Origin: a virus
Strand: one strand, 5' to 3'
DNA length: 64,000 nucleotides
Virus record (IMG/VR): IMGVR_UViG_3300044701_003269
Span: 110,187 to 174,186 of that record
Within the stretch, counting starts at the first letter, position 1. Every line of letters starts with the position of its first letter. Under the pieces are notes generated by a model. It was not told the DNA's origin, did no database searches, and saw nothing but the letters and a program-made list of their open reading frames with translations. A program made the translations under genes and the position numbers. Below are positions 10,173 through 22,813 of the stretch, in pieces.

Positions 10173-10327
10173 TGGACCTCACATTTAGACAACACATTTT
10201 GTTATTATCTGCAATCACGGTATTTTATGATGAGGTTGCAAAGACTGATAATTCTGAAATGAAACACGAAATTATGGAACTTGCTGATATTATCCAAGAG
10301 TCCGCAGAGAAGATGAAAAATGCCTGA
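10172..10327 (+). CDS. Hypothetical small helical protein (51 aa)
   Basis: Frame MDLTFRQHILLLSAI... starts within TAATG and overlaps the next ATG. Mostly amphipathic helix. Family unknown. Confidence 0.5.
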   Translation: MDLTFRQHILLLSAITVFYDEVAKTDNSEMKHEIMELADIIQESAEKMKNA

Positions 10328-10592
10328 AATAGACATATCAAAAGTTCTTATAGAAGGTGATACTGCAACCATTATGGGTGTAGAATATAAAAGAATGGAG
10401 AACAAAATGAGTCGCTTCACTGAAAATCCTGATGAGATTGTGTTGAAGAATATTGATCTATTTCACCTGGAAAGTATGAATGAAAGAACACTATGGATTG
10501 GTGTATATGGTAAGGATGGTAAAATCTATCACTTAAACATTTCTGCAGATGGTGATAAACTAAAATACTATTGGAGTCAAGAGGCACCATAA
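10320..10592 (+). CDS. Hypothetical protein (90 aa)
   Basis: Beta-rich pattern (GDTATIMGVEYKRM, TLWIGVYGKDGKIYHLNIS) and no membrane segment. It is the last gene before the first homing-endonuclease cassette. A CATAAATA late-type box lies across its stop (10588-10595). Function unknown. Confidence 0.6.
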   Translation: MPEIDISKVLIEGDTATIMGVEYKRMENKMSRFTENPDEIVLKNIDLFHLESMNERTLWIGVYGKDGKIYHLNISADGDKLKYYWSQEAP

Positions 10593-10602
10593 ATAACAAT
10601 AC

Positions 10603-10676
10603 CTGTAAGTCGCATTATAGGTGGAAAAGGTGCTTTCGGGCACCTTTTCTTATATAAATAGTATTGCGACTTACAG
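10603..10676 (+). promoter_or_regulatory. Late-gene latch 1: inverted repeat enclosing terminator and late promoter
   Basis: CTGTAAGTCGCA (10603-10614) pairs perfectly with TGCGACTTACAG (10665-10676). Between the arms, 50 bases apart, sit a hairpin terminator and TATAAATA (10653-10660). A late transcript starting about 6 bases after the box would lack the left arm. The right arm ends 9 bases before the start codon of the endonuclease-like gene. Confidence 0.7.
10625..10650. terminator. Strong hairpin terminator, possibly bidirectional
   Basis: AAAAGGTGC / GCACCTTTT (9-bp stem) with a 6-base loop TTTCGG and A/T runs on both sides. It stops early transcription before the endonuclease-like gene, leaving that gene to the late box just downstream. 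Confidence 0.85.
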
Positions 10677-10685
10677 AGTAGAACT

Positions 10686-11303
10686 ATGACTTCACAAAGT
10701 CCAAGAATATACACATATAAGATTACCTTTGAAGAAGTTCCTTACTATTACTATGGAGTTCATAAGGAAAAAAAGTTTGATGAGGAGTATTGGGGAACAC
10801 CAGTAACAAATAAATGGTGTTGGGAACTTTATACACCAAAGAAACAAATATTGGAAGTGTTTGATTATACTGATAATGGATGGGTGGAAGCAAATAGAAT
10901 TGAAAAAATAATAATCAAACAATTTTATAATACAGATAGATGGTGTTTGAATGAAAGTTGTGGTGGGGATATTTCGTTAGATATAAGAAGAAAAACTGGT
11001 AAAATAATCGGTAAAATGGTAGGCAAGAAAAATGCTAAAAGAAACAAAGAACTTGGTGTTGCTATTTTTTCACTCACACCAGAACAATTGAGTGAAAATG
11101 GTAAAAAAGGAGCAGCAAAAGTAAAAGAACTTGGTCTTGGGATATTTGGAATGACTATGGAGCAAAAATTAAATGCCGCAAAAACTACAAACTCTCAAAG
11201 GTGGATGTGTGTTGAAACTGGTTTTATTACATCTTCTGGACCACTTACCAGATATCAACAAAAAAGAAATATAGACACTTCTAAACGAGTTAGAATATCA
11301 TAA
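10686..11303 (+). CDS. GIY-YIG-like homing endonuclease with helical DNA-binding repeats
   Basis: 205 residues. The N-terminus has IYTYKITFEEVPYYYYGVH, a diverged GIY-YIG-type start, followed by EEYWGTP and EANRIEKIIIKQFYN (helix with the conserved Glu position). The second half has repeated SLTPEQLSENGKKGAAKVKE-type NUMOD3-like helices and a C-terminal W-M-C-V-E-T-G zinc/beta segment typical of homing enzymes. Predicted to nick or cut phage DNA at a cognate intergenic site. Flanked by a latch upstream and a terminator downstream. Confidence 0.65.
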   Translation: MTSQSPRIYTYKITFEEVPYYYYGVHKEKKFDEEYWGTPVTNKWCWELYTPKKQILEVFDYTDNGWVEANRIEKIIIKQFYNTDRWCLNESCGGDISLDIRRKTGKIIGKMVGKKNAKRNKELGVAIFSLTPEQLSENGKKGAAKVKELGLGIFGMTMEQKLNAAKTTNSQRWMCVETGFITSSGPLTRYQQKRNIDTSKRVRIS

Positions 11304-17771: not shown

Positions 17772-18042
17772 ATTTCCGCACAAAGCCCCAAAAGATTATA
17801 GTTATGAGTTCGAAGAGTTTAAACGTGGCGTGGTCTCTATTTGGTTGCGTTGTCATCGCAAGTTTGATTACAATAATGGTGCCTCAACCAGAACCATCTG
17901 GGGGTTTTGGTCAAAAAAAGATAGGAAGTTCTATTCTCCTGTAAATAGCAAAACTATTGGAAAAGAAATTGCGATTGATAAAACAACCCCATATACATCT
18001 ATGCCATTAAAACTTACTCCTTTGGAAGCAGCATTTTTTTAG
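17761..18042 (+). CDS. Hypothetical protein (93 aa)
   Basis: Start at ATG 17761 (MIAEFPHKAPKDYSY). Segments IWLRCHRKFDYNNG and IWGFWSKKDRKFYSPV look conserved and nucleic-acid-binding-like (aromatic plus basic), but this is a guess. Last gene before latch 2. Confidence 0.6.
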   Translation: MIAEFPHKAPKDYSYEFEEFKRGVVSIWLRCHRKFDYNNGASTRTIWGFWSKKDRKFYSPVNSKTIGKEIAIDKTTPYTSMPLKLTPLEAAFF

Positions 18043-18046
18043 GTGT

Positions 18047-18135
18047 GGGGCATCAACTTGTGTCTTGGCGGATTATAGTTGTGTAAGACCCCTTAAGTAT
18101 GGTATAATAAATACATATGTCTCGCCAAGGCACAA
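18047..18135 (+). promoter_or_regulatory. Late-gene latch 2 (inverted repeat around a late promoter)
   Basis: The left arm TTGTGTCTTGGCG (18058-18070) pairs with CGCCAAGGCACAA (18123-18135), which ends at the base before the ATG. The one DNA mismatch becomes a G-U pair in RNA. Between them are TATAAT (18103-18108) and AATAAATA (18106-18113). An alternative hairpin, GGGG/CCCC plus CAACT/AGTTG, holds the left arm in its loop. Confidence 0.75.
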
Positions 18136-18633
18136 ATGTATTACACTTACGCATATCTACGAGAAGATGGAACTCCTTACTACATCGGTAAAGGAACTGG
18201 TTATAGAATAAACGACAAAAAAAGAAAAAACATTAGTGTTCCACCAAGAAATAGAAGATTAATTCTCAAAACATTTTCTAATGAAAAAGATGCCTTCAAA
18301 CACGAAATCTATATGATAAGTGTTTATGGTCGCAAAGATAAGAAAACAGGTATTTTGAGAAACCTGACAGATGGTGGTGAAGGAACTACAAATGTTATTC
18401 GCAGTAAAGAACATTTAAATGCCTTAAGTGAAGGTAGAAAACACATTTACACTGAAGAACATTCTAAAAAAATTAGCAAAACTCTAAAAGAAAAAAATAT
18501 CAAACCACCCATACAAACAGGTAAAAAATGGTGGTATAATGGTGAAAAAACTACATTATCAAAAGAATGTCCAGGTCTCGGTTGGAAGCTTGGAAGACCC
18601 TCTGTAAATAATTGGAGTGTTTTGAACAAATGA
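18136..18633 (+). CDS. GIY-YIG homing endonuclease
   Basis: 165 residues. MYYTYAYLREDGTPYYIGKG is a textbook GIY-YIG opening (Y...YIG), followed by Arg after YGR and a Glu in the KHEIYMIS helix (metal ligand). NLTDGGEGTTN, SKEHLNALSEGRK and HSKKISKTLKEKN are NUMOD3-type DNA-binding helices. A W-W-Y-N-G segment with G-W-K-L-G-R-P forms the C-terminal target-recognition part. It is a free-standing gene between two small genes; its TGA overlaps the next ATG. Confidence 0.9.
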   Translation: MYYTYAYLREDGTPYYIGKGTGYRINDKKRKNISVPPRNRRLILKTFSNEKDAFKHEIYMISVYGRKDKKTGILRNLTDGGEGTTNVIRSKEHLNALSEGRKHIYTEEHSKKISKTLKEKNIKPPIQTGKKWWYNGEKTTLSKECPGLGWKLGRPSVNNWSVLNK

Positions 18634-18893
18634 CATATGAACCACAAGTTAATGACTACGTTGTATGGTCGAAAGGTGTGGAAGGATGGGTTTATTTCAA
18701 AGACAGAGAATACATTACCATTGAGTATATTGTTCGACCAAAGGATGAAGTAAACCTTGAATGTTGCCCCATTCACAAAAATGAAAGATTACTTGTGATT
18801 TGTTATGCCCAGCAATGGAAAGAATTAAAATATATCAAGTCTCGTCAATCAATACATGAAAAAACAGAAAACTGCTTGGCGATTGCTTGCTAA
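18630..18893 (+). CDS. Hypothetical protein (87 aa)
   Basis: Start at ATG 18630 (MTYEPQVNDYVVWSKGVEGW), overlapping the endonuclease stop. An SH3-like beta pattern (DYVVWS...GWVYFKDREYITIEYIV) plus CCPIHKNERLLVICY. A similar protein probably directly followed the 17761 gene before the endonuclease entered. Confidence 0.6.
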   Translation: MTYEPQVNDYVVWSKGVEGWVYFKDREYITIEYIVRPKDEVNLECCPIHKNERLLVICYAQQWKELKYIKSRQSIHEKTENCLAIAC

Positions 18894-19134
18894 AGCACTT
18901 GGAGAGAAAGCAAGTAAATGTGATAAGGAAGCAGATAAAGTAGCACTCATCCGTCTACTGATTACCATACAAATTCTTGTCACTAACTTCTTTATCATCT
19001 ATGGTGTAATTCGTGTTAATCACTTCCCAATAGATAGACAACAAAAAGTTGAAGTTGTAATTGATGGTTCTGTGCTCCCAGAGTATCAACCTCCGCCAAG
19101 GAGAGGACTAAACAAACCACTTGAATTTGAATGA
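18856..19134 (+). CDS. Single-pass membrane protein (92 aa)
   Basis: Basic N-terminus, one membrane helix (IRLLITIQILVTNFFIIYGV), then a Pro-rich tail (PEYQPPPRRG). Overlaps the preceding gene by 38 bases. Its stop is directly followed by repeat copy 3. Confidence 0.6.
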   Translation: MKKQKTAWRLLAKALGEKASKCDKEADKVALIRLLITIQILVTNFFIIYGVIRVNHFPIDRQQKVEVVIDGSVLPEYQPPPRRGLNKPLEFE

Positions 19135-19135
19135 A

Positions 19136-19169
19136 TTAAAGTTACTTAGCTCTAAACTGGACCTATAGT
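19136..19169 (+). promoter_or_regulatory. Recurrent promoter-like repeat, copy 3
   Basis: TTACTT (19142-19147), 16-bp spacer with one change (AAACTGG), TATAGT (19164-19169). The first ATG is 6 bases after the box, so the start point would be at or just after it, as in most copies. Confidence 0.65.
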
Positions 19170-19175
19170 GTAAGG

Positions 19176-19322
19176 ATGAATGATTCTATGGACTGCTTTG
19201 ATGACATCCAAATTGAAGAAACTTCAGGTTTTGATTTCATCGAACAAGATTTGTCGGACCTCATTGAAGAGGAAAACAATTTCAATATGAATGATTACCT
19301 CAACGGAAACTACGATTACTGA
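19176..19322 (+). CDS. Highly acidic micro-protein (48 aa)
   Basis: MNDSMDCFDDIQIEETSGFD..., net charge strongly negative (EQDLSDLIEEENN). A second in-frame Met is at codon 5. Possibly a DNA mimic or protein inhibitor, but nothing specific is recognised. Confidence 0.5.
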   Translation: MNDSMDCFDDIQIEETSGFDFIEQDLSDLIEEENNFNMNDYLNGNYDY

Positions 19323-19324
19323 TT

Positions 19325-19480
19325 ATGACTGAAACAAGCAACTATTGGACTCCCAAACTCAACAATGCAACAAATCGTCGTATTGAGAAACTTGAAAGTG
19401 AGGGTGTAAAGATTAACACAAGCACACACGAAGGACGCAAGGTTATTGGTTACAATTACCTAGAACTTGCAAAAGACTGA
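19325..19480 (+). CDS. Hypothetical small protein (51 aa)
   Basis: MTETSNYWTPKLNNATNRRI..., basic N-terminal half, beta hairpin-like end (GRKVIGYNYLEL). Two bases after the previous stop. Function unknown. Confidence 0.5.
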   Translation: MTETSNYWTPKLNNATNRRIEKLESEGVKINTSTHEGRKVIGYNYLELAKD

Positions 19481-19499
19481 ACCTTAACTTATCAAAACA

Positions 19500-19709
19500 A
19501 TGACCGAACACATCCCTAACGTCCTGCCCTACATCCGAGAACTGAAAGATACTTGGCGTCGTCAAGATTTCTCCTTCACTAAACAACAGCAAGAAGAATA
19601 TGACATTCTAATTGCTACTCGCCGCGAACGTGTTAAGTATTTCTATGACAATGATATGGTCTGCAAGATTAGTAAATCGGCACAAGATAAACTGAAAGAA
19701 GATAATTAG
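19500..19709 (+). CDS. Hypothetical helical protein (69 aa)
   Basis: MTEHIPNVLPYIRELKDTWR..., helical and charged (ATRRERVKYFYDND). Last gene before a strong terminator. Function unknown. Confidence 0.6.
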   Translation: MTEHIPNVLPYIRELKDTWRRQDFSFTKQQQEEYDILIATRRERVKYFYDNDMVCKISKSAQDKLKEDN

Positions 19710-19716
19710 TAAGGTT

Positions 19717-19745
19717 GGGTCCAGTTGAGAGGCTGGACCCTTTCT
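19717..19745 (+). terminator. Rho-independent terminator
   Basis: GGGTCCAG / CTGGACCC (8-bp stem), 8-base loop, tail TTTCT. It separates the early small genes from the basic protein gene, which then depends on a late box. Confidence 0.85.
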
Positions 19746-19781
19746 ATTGACTAAATACCTGAAAAGGGTTTATAGTCAATA
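19745..19781 (+). promoter_or_regulatory. Late-gene latch 4: inverted repeat overlapping a late box
   Basis: TATTGACTA (19745-19753) and TAGTCAATA (19773-19781) are perfect inverted arms, the right one ending 3 bases before the ATG. The late-type box CTAAATAC (19751-19758) overlaps the left arm. A transcript starting about 6 bases after the box would lack that arm, as in the three endonuclease cassettes. Confidence 0.6.
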
Positions 19782-19784
19782 AAG

Positions 19785-20468
19785 ATGAGAAGTTTTCAGC
19801 AGTTCATGTCTATTTGTGAGGAAGTTGAAGACAAGTCAAAGAGACTTGGATTTGCTGCTACAATTAAGACTGCACAAGCAGGTGGTAGGGTTCGCCCAGA
19901 ACGTAAGAAAACACCTGCCGAAATACGCAGAATGAAAGCTGTGGGTGGTGGTAAGATGGAACCTGTTGGTCCATACAAACCCCGCAAAGATATTGGAACT
20001 CAAAAGACTGCTGCTCAACGTCAGCAACAACCAGAGAAAGAGCGTGGAAGTAAGGAAGTCGCACAATCTTATGCTGAAAAAGTAAAAGCAGAACGTAGAG
20101 CAGCAGCACAAGCAAGAGCAGCAGCTAAGAAAGGTGGTTCTGCAACAACCACAGCAAAAGCAAAACCCAAAGACTTATCAAAACAAGCATCTCAACTTCT
20201 TTCAACAAAGAAAGCAGAAGAGAAACCAGCAACCCGCACAAATAGAAAGTGGAGAACTGAAACTGGTGCTGGTATGACAAAGAGCGAAAGAGCTAGTGCA
20301 AGAGGTAAAGAGAAAACTGCAAAAGCACAAGAAACTAAGAAATCTTCTAGTGAAATTCTTGCCAAGATGCGTAAAGAGTATGAAGAAGGTGGTGGTAAGT
20401 GGAGCAATGCTGTTGCAGTTAGAATGAGAGCAAAGGCAAAAGCAGCAGCACAAGCATCAGGAAGCTGA
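19785..20468 (+). CDS. Basic Ala/Lys-rich protein with capsid-targeting-like N-terminus
   Basis: 227 residues. The opening MRSFQQFMSICEEVED resembles the capsid-targeting sequence of T4 internal head proteins (MKTYQEF.. type), and I-C-E could be a prohead-protease site ([LI]-x-E). RPERKKTPAEIRRMKAVGGG followed by PYKPRKDIG is a motif I know from other cyanophage proteins. The rest is Lys/Ala/Arg-rich and histone-H1-like (AERRAAAQARAAAKKGG). I infer a DNA-binding protein packaged in the head. The late box fits late expression. Confidence 0.6.
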   Translation: MRSFQQFMSICEEVEDKSKRLGFAATIKTAQAGGRVRPERKKTPAEIRRMKAVGGGKMEPVGPYKPRKDIGTQKTAAQRQQQPEKERGSKEVAQSYAEKVKAERRAAAQARAAAKKGGSATTTAKAKPKDLSKQASQLLSTKKAEEKPATRTNRKWRTETGAGMTKSERASARGKEKTAKAQETKKSSSEILAKMRKEYEEGGGKWSNAVAVRMRAKAKAAAQASGS

Positions 20469-20475
20469 GGGGCAA

Positions 20476-20509
20476 TTAAAGTTACTTAGCTCCAAAGTGG
20501 ACCTATAGT
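20476..20509 (+). promoter_or_regulatory. Recurrent promoter-like repeat, copy 4
   Basis: TTACTT (20482-20487), 16-bp spacer, TATAGT (20504-20509) abutting ATG. The downstream 14 bases (ATGACCGACAACAT) are the same as after copy 5, so the duplicated unit extends into the coding region. Confidence 0.7.
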
Positions 20510-20752
20510 ATGACCGACAACATTATGAAAGTTTCTGAAAAACCCCAAATCATTAACGGTATGGAACATATGGTTACTACTGTTAATGGTTTGGACCGAG
20601 TGGAAATTAACAACAAACTTCATCATCTTGGCGACCAACTTATGAAACTCAAGTTGGAACAAGACCAACTTATTCAAATGCGGAATATGATTGACCGCCA
20701 GAATGAATTGAGTGAGATGAATAACTTATTCGACGAAATGTTCGGCGGTTGA
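20510..20752 (+). CDS. Coiled-coil small protein (80 aa)
   Basis: MTDNIMKVSEKPQIING..., with a C-terminal helix of heptads (LGDQLMKLKLEQDQLIQMRN). If the TATAGT upstream is a real -10, translation must start at Met6 (20525). Function unknown. Confidence 0.6.
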   Translation: MTDNIMKVSEKPQIINGMEHMVTTVNGLDRVEINNKLHHLGDQLMKLKLEQDQLIQMRNMIDRQNELSEMNNLFDEMFGG

Positions 20753-20764
20753 TTAAATAAAAAT

Positions 20765-20857
20765 GTGGGCAGCAACTGTAGGTCTTGGCGGAAATATAGT
20801 TGCGTAAGTCCCACTTTTATTGTATAATAAATAGATATAGTCTCGCCAAGACCTACA
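20765..20857 (+). promoter_or_regulatory. Late-gene latch 3 (inverted repeat around a late promoter)
   Basis: TGTAGGTCTTGGCG (20777-20790) pairs perfectly with CGCCAAGACCTACA (20844-20857), which abuts the ATG. TATAAT (20823-20828) and AATAAATA (20826-20833) lie between. An alternative outer hairpin, GTGGG/CCCAC plus GCAACT/AGTTGC, carries the left arm in its loop. It is closely similar to latch 2, with matched changes in both arms. Confidence 0.75.
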
Positions 20858-21274
20858 ATGAATAATAAAGAAGCGCAATGTGTGATGTGTGGTCGCACAT
20901 ATAAAAAGTATAGAAATAATCAGTTATATTGTTCTAGGATTTGTTGTGGTAAATCCGATAGAATAAAAAATGGTTATCAACATTCTTTAGAACATTTAAC
21001 AAAAGGCAAAATGGGTTCCATATCTGAACTTGAAGTTTGTACTTATTATCTAAAGCAAGGTTATGAAGTTTTTAGAAATGTAACCCAAGATGGTCTTGTT
21101 GATATCGTTATTTGGAAAAAGGAAACTAATGAAATCCATTTAATAGATGTCAAAACTTATCTTAAGAAAACTGACCCACAAAACTACATAAAGCAAATAG
21201 AGGAAAAAAATGATTTTGGTGTAAAAGTTGTTCCATACAATCATATAACTAAAGAAGTTTTAAGAGACCTCTAA
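20858..21274 (+). CDS. PD-(D/E)XK-type homing-endonuclease-like protein with zinc ribbon
   Basis: 138 residues. The N-terminus has a CxxC...CSRICC zinc-finger (CVMCGRTYKKYRNNQLYCSR). The nuclease part shows GSISELEVCTYYLKQGYEVF (helix with Glu), then GLVDIVIW and HLIDVKTY, i.e. E...D...DxK, the PD-(D/E)XK core. The layout fits Holliday-resolvase-like or I-Ssp6803I-like homing enzymes. It uses the same latch as the unrelated GIY-YIG gene, which supports a mobile-endonuclease identity. Confidence 0.7.
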   Translation: MNNKEAQCVMCGRTYKKYRNNQLYCSRICCGKSDRIKNGYQHSLEHLTKGKMGSISELEVCTYYLKQGYEVFRNVTQDGLVDIVIWKKETNEIHLIDVKTYLKKTDPQNYIKQIEEKNDFGVKVVPYNHITKEVLRDL

Positions 21275-21337: not shown

Positions 21338-21535
21338 ATGAATTATATTCAAATCCCTGATTTTGTGCTGGATAGTATCATCAACTCTCTTCAGCAAGGT
21401 TATGATGTTTGTGCTGGAGTTGATTATTCTTCCGATGAAACTGAGAAGAGACCAGAGTATGCAACTGGATACAGTCGTCCTACAATGTGGGATGTAATTG
21501 TGCGATTGAAGCAATACCAAGAGAAGACCAATTAA
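21338..21535 (+). CDS. Hypothetical small protein (65 aa)
   Basis: Start at ATG 21338 (MNYIQIPDFVLDSIINSL). Acidic middle (YSSDETEKRPEYATGYS). The frame ends EKTN-stop with the TAA inside repeat copy 5. Function unknown. Confidence 0.6.
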   Translation: MNYIQIPDFVLDSIINSLQQGYDVCAGVDYSSDETEKRPEYATGYSRPTMWDVIVRLKQYQEKTN

Positions 21536-21565
21536 AGTTACTTAGCTCCAAAGTGACCCTATAGT
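21532..21565 (+). promoter_or_regulatory. Recurrent promoter-like repeat, copy 5
   Basis: TTACTT (21538-21543), 16-bp spacer, TATAGT (21560-21565) abutting the ATG of the helicase. It supplies the stop codon of the upstream gene. Confidence 0.7.
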
Positions 21566-22813
21566 ATGACCGACAACATTATGCAAATCCAACTCCGTCC
21601 TCACCAAGAACGTGGCGTTGCTGCTATGCAAAAGCACGCCAAAGGTCAAATCATTGTTCCTACTGGTGGTGGAAAAACGCTGAAGATGATTTACGATGCT
21701 CTGCGCGAGTTGCAGTCTAAAACTCCTCAGACCATTGTTGTTGTTGCTCCTCGCATCTTGCTTGCAGAGCAGCTGTCTTCTGAGTTCCTAGAGTTTATCA
21801 CCAATGCCGAAGTGATGCACGTTCACAGTGGCGAAACTCACCACTTCAGTTCCACTCGTCCTGGTGAAATTCGCAACTGGGTTGAGAGCAATGCCGACAA
21901 TCATCGCCTGATTGTAACCACCTACAACTCCCTGTCGCGTCTTCAAGTGGCAGAGATTGATGTGGATACCATCTACTTTGATGAGGCACATAACTCAGTT
22001 CAGCGTCACTTTTTCCCTGCAACAGAGCACTTTGCTGCTAATGCACGTCGCTGCTATTTCTTCACTGCTACACCCAAGCACAGTCTAGCTGTAGGCAAAG
22101 CAGGTATGAATGATGCTGCAGTCTACGGTCAAGTAATCTGCAAAGTTCCTGCTCCTGAGTTGGTTGAAGGTGGTTACATTGTGCCTCCTAAAGTGGTTGT
22201 CAAGCAACTGGAGATGGTACAGGGCAAGCAGACCAACTTCGACCGCGACGCTGAGAATCTGCTGGAAACGATTGATGACAACAAGGTTGGCAAGATTCTG
22301 ATTTGTGCTAAGGCAACCAAGCAAATCGTCTCTCTGGTGACTGAAACTGATTTCTGCTTCCAGTTGGAATGTCGCGGTTATTCTTGGATGTATATTACTG
22401 CCAAGACTGGTGCAGTTATTGACGGTCAGAAGGTCAACCGTGAGGTATTCTTTGACACCCTAAGTGCCTGGGGCAAGGATAACTCTAAGAAGTTTGTGGT
22501 TCTTCACCACAGCATCCTAGCTGAAGGTATCAACGTCAGCGGTTTGGAAGCAGTGCTTTTCCTCCGCAATATGGACTTCATTGGTATCTCTCAGACCATC
22601 GGACGTTGCATCCGTTTGCACCACGATGATGCCCAAGGTATGCGCGATGGACGTATCGAACCTGGCAACCTCAGTCAGTATAGCAAATCGTTCGGTCTTG
22701 TGTGTATCCCTGTCTACAGCAGGGTTGGTATCACTACCGCCAAAGCTGTGCAGTCGGTTGTTGATACCATCTTTCAGAAGGGAGAACCTGCCATCTCGGT
22801 GGTTCGCAGGTAA
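21566..22813 (+). CDS. SF2 DNA/RNA helicase (DEAH-type)
   Basis: 415 residues. RPHQERG is a Q-like motif, VPTGGGKT (31-38) Walker A, VVAPRILLAEQ motif Ia, DEAH (139-142) motif II, FTATP (166-170) motif III, and QTIGRCIRLH motif VI. ATP-driven translocase of the UvsW/XPB-like class by pattern. Codon choice looks more GC-rich than in neighbours. Met6 (21581) is the alternative start. It opens a cluster with a nuclease, a methyltransferase and a ligase-like enzyme. Confidence 0.9.
   Translation: MTDNIMQIQLRPHQERGVAAMQKHAKGQIIVPTGGGKTLKMIYDALRELQSKTPQTIVVVAPRILLAEQLSSEFLEFITNAEVMHVHSGETHHFSSTRPGEIRNWVESNADNHRLIVTTYNSLSRLQVAEIDVDTIYFDEAHNSVQRHFFPATEHFAANARRCYFFTATPKHSLAVGKAGMNDAAVYGQVICKVPAPELVEGGYIVPPKVVVKQLEMVQGKQTNFDRDAENLLETIDDNKVGKILICAKATKQIVSLVTETDFCFQLECRGYSWMYITAKTGAVIDGQKVNREVFFDTLSAWGKDNSKKFVVLHHSILAEGINVSGLEAVLFLRNMDFIGISQTIGRCIRLHHDDAQGMRDGRIEPGNLSQYSKSFGLVCIPVYSRVGITTAKAVQSVVDTIFQKGEPAISVVRR

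Follow-up and report, generated by a model that had tools for sequence, protein, structure and literature searches.

The closest described systems are the late RNA latches of the T4 type, whose logic has been shown or proposed for I-TevI, segB and mobE (PMC2988022, PMC3014915). In these latches (I-TevI, I-TevII, I-TevIII, T4 segB, Aeh1 mobE, T4 e and soc), which precede mostly homing endonuclease genes, two complementary arms enclose a late promoter, the right arm lies over the translation start region, and RNA reading through from upstream would be closed and late RNA open. In T4 e, soc and others, the Shine-Dalgarno sequence and/or the AUG is hidden (PMC3014915). Antisense RNAs are also pertinent, namely the model of IS10 RNA-OUT (PMC5006887) and an RNA of phage S-PM2 that links psbA and the F-CphI endonuclease (Millard 2010, as cited in PMC5931967). 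Here we describe a 64,000-nucleotide stretch of viral DNA (IMG/VR record IMGVR_UViG_3300044701_003269, positions 110,187 to 174,186), called the window below, in which two leaders, one before a GIY-YIG gene (GIY leader) and one before a PD-(D/E)XK-like gene (PD leader), have the T4-type arrangement. Judged from their sequences, these two leaders are probably RNA latches that silence inserted homing endonuclease genes until late infection. An earlier examination of the same DNA (the sequence-only reading) had proposed such latches on the T4 precedent, and the literature bears out that precedent.

Both leaders and the genes behind them, like the sister-type cassette described below, are on the + strand. 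The GIY leader (18047-18135) and the PD leader (20765-20857) are built of complementary arms around a late promoter motif, and their right arms run up to the base that precedes the AUG at 18136 and 20858, respectively. The hairpin of each starts just 3' of the upstream gene, which for the GIY leader is co-directional and ends at 18042. The 5' hairpin of the GIY leader (18047-18092), recognized from the sequence and from two-sided changes in its helices among 39 aligned leaders, is composed of helix P1 (GGGG 18047-18050 / CCCC 18089-18092), helix P2 (CAACT 18054-18058 / AGTTG 18077-18081) and a conserved GTAAG (18083-18087). The P2 loop holds the left (antisense) arm TTGTGTCTTGGCGG (18058-18071), which is the complement of 18122-18135. 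Between the arms lies the T4-type late promoter motif TATAATAAATA (18103-18113; assigned at motif level), and the right arm TCGCCAAGGCACAA (18122-18135) stands immediately 5' of the ATG of a gene for a free-standing homing endonuclease of the GIY-YIG family, 165 amino acids long (18136-18633). The PD leader repeats this plan: its hairpin (20765-20814) has P1 (GTGGG 20765-20769 / CCCAC 20810-20814), P2 (GCAACT 20772-20777 / AGTTGC 20798-20803) and GTAAG (20804-20808), its left arm TGTAGGTCTTGGCGG (20777-20791) is complementary over 15 positions to 20843-20857, the same motif TATAATAAATA (20823-20833; likewise at motif level) follows, and the right arm TCGCCAAGACCTACA (20843-20857) stands immediately 5' of the ATG of a gene for 138 amino acids, tentatively a zinc-finger-like plus PD-(D/E)XK-like nuclease (20858-21274). 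The motif TATAATAAATA occurs twice in the 64 kb against 0.17 expected. The elements quoted in the sequence-only reading are each present in the window where it had placed them, and the single non-Watson-Crick arm pair of the GIY leader is T18063/G18130, a G-U pair as RNA. Both leaders that it reported are real, although the window holds a third, of a sister type (10589-10688).

The first relative matched was found in the cultured freshwater cyanophage S-SRM01, where the inner arm is entirely different (TTGTGTCAGGGGTGAT) and its complement again lies before the start codon. Genomes were scanned in 20-kb stretches; a hairpin pattern search of viral contigs gave 42 stretches and a second pattern 65. 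After filtering, the first leader type comprised 56 unique leaders with 35 arm variants, in cyanophage DNA, and its hairpin pattern had no match among prokaryotic genomes (84,980 species). Thirty-nine of the 56 were aligned with MAFFT for analysis of covariation; here and in the counts of occurrence, sequences rather than independent events are counted, and phylogeny is uncorrected. As in the T4-type latches, pairing is kept by compensatory change: two-sided changes were observed in 11 of 14 latch pairs, in 2 of 5 P1 pairs and in 2 of 4 P2 pairs. Paired cells amounted to 88.5%, compared with 74.8% after shuffling and 31-52% with partners slid, and the covariation score, lowered because a few alignment rows are misaligned, was 0.324 against 0.118 in the control. 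As read from these sequences, the two arm halves have changed together dozens of times. The leaders had no match in Rfam 15 at gathering score, the weak matches being chance ones to eukaryotic microRNA or small nucleolar RNA models; a riboswitch or other known RNA was therefore rejected. P1 was also rejected as a general terminator of the first type, since its U-tracts vary from 1 to 6 T per 7 nucleotides.

A set chosen independently of pairing was obtained by a protein search from the GIY gene, which gave 573 relatives, of which the best 80 were kept. Arms flank the late promoter motif in 57 of the 76 analysable loci, and in 39 of 50 unique loci with that motif near the start the arm pairing exceeds the 99th percentile of shuffles. 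Most of these relatives carry the sister-type leader and not the first type. A late-promoter motif in forward sense between the arms is a property of every leader kept; it faces the gene in all, with 0 of 214 leaders reversed, in agreement with the orientation claimed in the earlier reading. An SD-like (Shine-Dalgarno-like) tetramer is present in 18 of the 214, the Shine-Dalgarno sequence thus being usually absent. Some GIY relatives (L059, L060, L061, L065, L070, L072 and L074) are natural latch-less cassettes, suitable as controls, with a terminator and a late promoter motif and no complementary left arm, and GIY homologues of cultured phages at L049, L051, L054, L055 and L057 have no obvious upstream latch. 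A third design, found in the same kind of phage before classical GIY-YIG genes (L064, reverse strand, about 216; L038:2707; L194, reverse strand, about 786; L240:4158), consists of simple T4-like latches lacking P2, terminator and first promoter motif.

The sister type is the commoner architecture, with 159 unique terminator-type leaders compared with 56 of the first type. Its order is TAAATA, a short P2 hairpin with the left arm in the loop, an intrinsic terminator, TATAAATA, the right arm and the AUG. In the window, this cassette starts with ATAAATA (LP1, 10589-10595), whose TAA doubles as the stop codon of the upstream open reading frame (ORF) at 10320-10592, followed by the P2 hairpin ACCTGT/ATAGGT (10601-10622, supported by the P2 swap test below) with the left arm CTGTAAGTCGCATTAT (10603-10618) inside it. 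Between the arms lie the terminator GGTGCTTTCGGGCACC-TTTTCT (10629-10650) and the late promoter motif TATAAATA (LP2, 10653-10660); the right arm GTATTGCGACTTACAG (10661-10676) and a GIY-YIG-like endonuclease ORF of 205 amino acids (10686-11303) complete the unit. Arms match their own partners far better than those of other leaders (15.2 versus 7.4 +/- 1.8; swap test with 55 sister-type clusters), and P2 flanks reach the threshold in 80% of cases when paired with their own partner and in 33% when swapped (0 of 5000 permutations reach the observed value, p < 2e-4). The left arm lies inside the loop of a covarying P2 hairpin in both leader types. Covariation, the arm swap test and the protein-anchored shuffled controls all point to selection on arm pairing, as the earlier reading had claimed.

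We propose that RNA reading through from the upstream genes carries both arms, which would form a duplex of 13-15 base pairs reaching the AUG; with the Shine-Dalgarno sequence usually absent, initiation would be blocked by lost single-strandedness. RNA started at the late promoter would lack the left arm and be translated. P2 would show the left arm as an open loop, allowing a fast meeting with the right arm, after which P2 would open. Covariation of latch, P1 and P2, the number of arm variants, the swap and protein-anchored tests and the unreversed promoter all favor this latch, as do its predicted stability (in the sister type on average 13.6 kcal/mol more stable than the open form), the scarcity of SD-like tetramers, the co-directional upstream gene and, by analogy, the precedent of I-TevI, segB and mobE. 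The comparison with the T4-type latches also reveals differences. In the cyanophages, a covarying P1/P2 hairpin carries the left arm in its loop, one leader design stands before several nuclease families with many arm sequences, and the left arm of the sister type is flanked by a promoter motif and a terminator. In I-TevI it is the Shine-Dalgarno sequence that is sequestered, unlike in most cyanophage leaders; since T4 e and soc hide this sequence and/or the AUG, its absence marks a variant and not an exclusion from the T4-type latch. Thus the two reported leaders appear to be of a known kind, the T4-type late latch, and what seems new is the hairpin-presented arm, the missing Shine-Dalgarno sequence, the scale and, in the sister type, a predicted antisense RNA of about 60 nucleotides.

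Some observations fit the latch poorly. P2 competes with it and would be superfluous in a purely intramolecular lock; on steric grounds P2 presumably cannot coexist with the full duplex, as almost no linker would be left across more than one helical turn. The conserved GTAAG in the P1/P2 internal loop is not explained by a latch, and 19 of the 76 analysable GIY relatives have no such arms, so that the latch is not obligatory. The model in the sequence-only reading therefore stands in part: a T4-type latch explains the arms, the promoter and their position, but that model leaves the covarying P2 around the left arm without a role and, for the sister type, does not account for a left arm that alone is enclosed by a promoter motif and a terminator. 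Bracketed in this way, the sister-type left arm should mostly be transcribed into RNA that stops short of the right arm, and the lock would there act mostly between molecules.

This leads to an explanation to which we give somewhat less than an even chance, that of an antisense RNA acting between molecules. LP1 would produce an RNA of about 60 nucleotides, made up of the P2 hairpin, whose loop holds the left arm, and the terminator after it. This RNA would pair with the LP2 mRNA at its 5' end, as IS10 RNA-OUT does with RNA-IN; for the first type, the same hairpin would come from upstream RNA. The antisense RNA and the latch could operate side by side. A late-promoter-like [A/C]TAAATA precedes the left arm in 158 of 159 terminator-type leaders and in 1 of 56 of the terminator-less first type (Fisher 4e-49; relatedness uncorrected), which ties the motif to the terminator. 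The RNA predicted from the LP1 start to the terminator measures 59.7 +/- 2.9 nucleotides, and minimum-energy folds of it contain P2 in 51 of 55 cases and the terminator in 55 of 55. P2, besides pairing better with its own than with swapped flanks, starts a near-constant 4 nucleotides after TAAATA, a spacing that fits a T4-type start site. An antisense RNA would account for P2 as well as for the promoter motif and terminator that enclose the left arm. Against it, the A of TATAAATA is often missing from LP1 (C in 18 of 55), and TAAATA supplies the stop codon of the upstream gene in many cases (50 of the 135 with an upstream reading frame found, with +4 or -3 stops accounting for 37 more); [A/C]TAAATA may be both promoter and upstream stop codon. 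Furthermore, arms showed no orthogonality within a genome (cross-pairing 2.7% within versus 3.1% between genomes), and the first type has neither LP1 nor a conserved terminator. The likeness to IS10 lies in a hairpin-presented antisense stretch directed at the 5' end and start region of the mRNA for a mobile element's enzyme; in IS10 that stretch is on the opposite strand, whereas in the cyanophages it is a same-strand inverted copy placed in tandem. As candidates for a promoter and end of its own, the stretch has the late-promoter-like motif and the terminator in the sister type, and as a rule neither in the first. The S-PM2 RNA resembles it as a cyanophage RNA tied to a homing endonuclease gene, and is reportedly transcribed from the opposite strand. 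From the sequences, then, the latch has the best support as explanation of the two reported leaders, and for the sister type the antisense RNA is a testable reading.

Explanations at the DNA level fare worse. The inverted arms might be an operator by which the endonuclease represses its own gene, as I-TevI does through a known operator over its late promoter (PMC2988022), but nearly identical proteins (up to 93%) have unrelated arms, unrelated proteins have near-identical arms, and P1 and P2 covary as RNA helices, which makes an operator improbable. Inverted repeats around a promoter motif are also what recombination sites flipping that promoter would look like; as none of the 214 leaders has it reversed, an invertible promoter was rejected for the sequences sampled and is scarcely credible. 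As little is to be said for arms arising as a by-product of a terminator or by chance in AT-rich DNA: the sister type does have a terminator, and many first-type leaders have U-rich tracts after P1, but the pairing of the arms is distinct from the terminator and was kept through dozens of sequence changes, and the shuffled and swapped controls reject this origin for the arms.

The leaders appear to belong to the inserted units. S-SM2 offers an empty site, in which the two genes flanking the GIY cassette adjoin each other and overlap in ATGA; in the window the GIY leader and its gene lie between them, the endonuclease stop overlapping the next start, and therefore leader plus gene constitute an insertion. 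In S-B68 a cassette lies directly 3' of the gene 43 stop, and S-H34, S-N03 and S-CREM2 lack both that cassette and ATAAATA. From these empty-site comparisons, the leader, the first promoter motif included, was part of the insertion there; for the PD cassette, an empty site was not found among the genomes compared. Non-interchangeable arms were observed in 19 of 94 pairs of cassette ORFs at least 75% identical (up to 93% identity), so that the leader must have been exchanged or replaced whole, both arms together. The proposal of a mobile regulatory cassette thus holds insofar as the leader lies inside the inserted unit (S-SM2, S-B68) and near-identical ORFs carry different leaders, but no sign of a leader moving alone was seen.

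As had been claimed for the two window genes, the leader is common to unrelated nuclease families. Most leader-bearing ORFs are GIY-YIG (a single-linkage cluster of 203), and the rest are HNH-like, PD-(D/E)XK-like or unassigned. The gene at 18136 matches PHROG 15526 (2e-29) and the homing endonuclease PHROG 314 (9e-8) and, by this family match and its presence or absence at the site, is a GIY-YIG homing endonuclease. The ORF at 10686-11303 had no Pfam match and groups with GIY-YIG ORFs by single-linkage BLASTP. In the gene at 20858, D82 and D97-V-K99 are invariant with its relative (2 sequences), on which a PDDEXK_5 match is weak and below cut-off; the protein model has an alpha-beta-beta-beta-alpha order at low confidence (predicted local distance difference test, pLDDT, 45), and searching solved structures by sequence yielded no useful match. 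The PD family has the first leader type in the window and the sister type in L146/L365 and L364, with different arms in these cassettes.

Other features were noted beside these subjects. GIY-YIG endonucleases of this family are annotated as 'translation initiation factor 2' in MN695335.1 (gp45) and PV340852.1 (SfCH5_200), probably a misannotation. In the window, AATTAAAGTTACTTAGCTCyAAAsTGGACCTATAGT occurs near-identically three times before genes (19134-19180, 20474-20530 and 21530-21590), the last two copies also having their first codons (MTDNIM) in common; this stretch looks like a repeated early-type promoter or leader. On a cyanophage-like contig (L106:3880-4141), an abiF RNA (RF03085) lies 30 bases 5' of a group I intron, apparently located within a tRNA gene; both were rejected as leader-related, being about 1.4 kb from the leader.

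Our findings suggest that a control first characterized in a few T4 endonucleases forms a widespread and exchangeable module of cyanophage DNA that serves several nuclease families and appears to be under strong selection at the RNA level. Its roughly one hundred distinct arm pairs amount to a natural experiment in RNA pairing of unusual clarity. Such cassettes also occur in cultured phages, namely S-SRM01 (seven cassettes, with both leader types), B23, S-B68 and Sf-CH5, in which the latch and the antisense reading are both directly testable. If the antisense RNA exists, endonuclease output would be damped as phage genome copies multiply late in infection, a same-strand counterpart of IS10 multicopy inhibition, and the RNA could silence matching cassettes of a co-infecting phage; it would then represent a novel form of self-limitation by a selfish gene.

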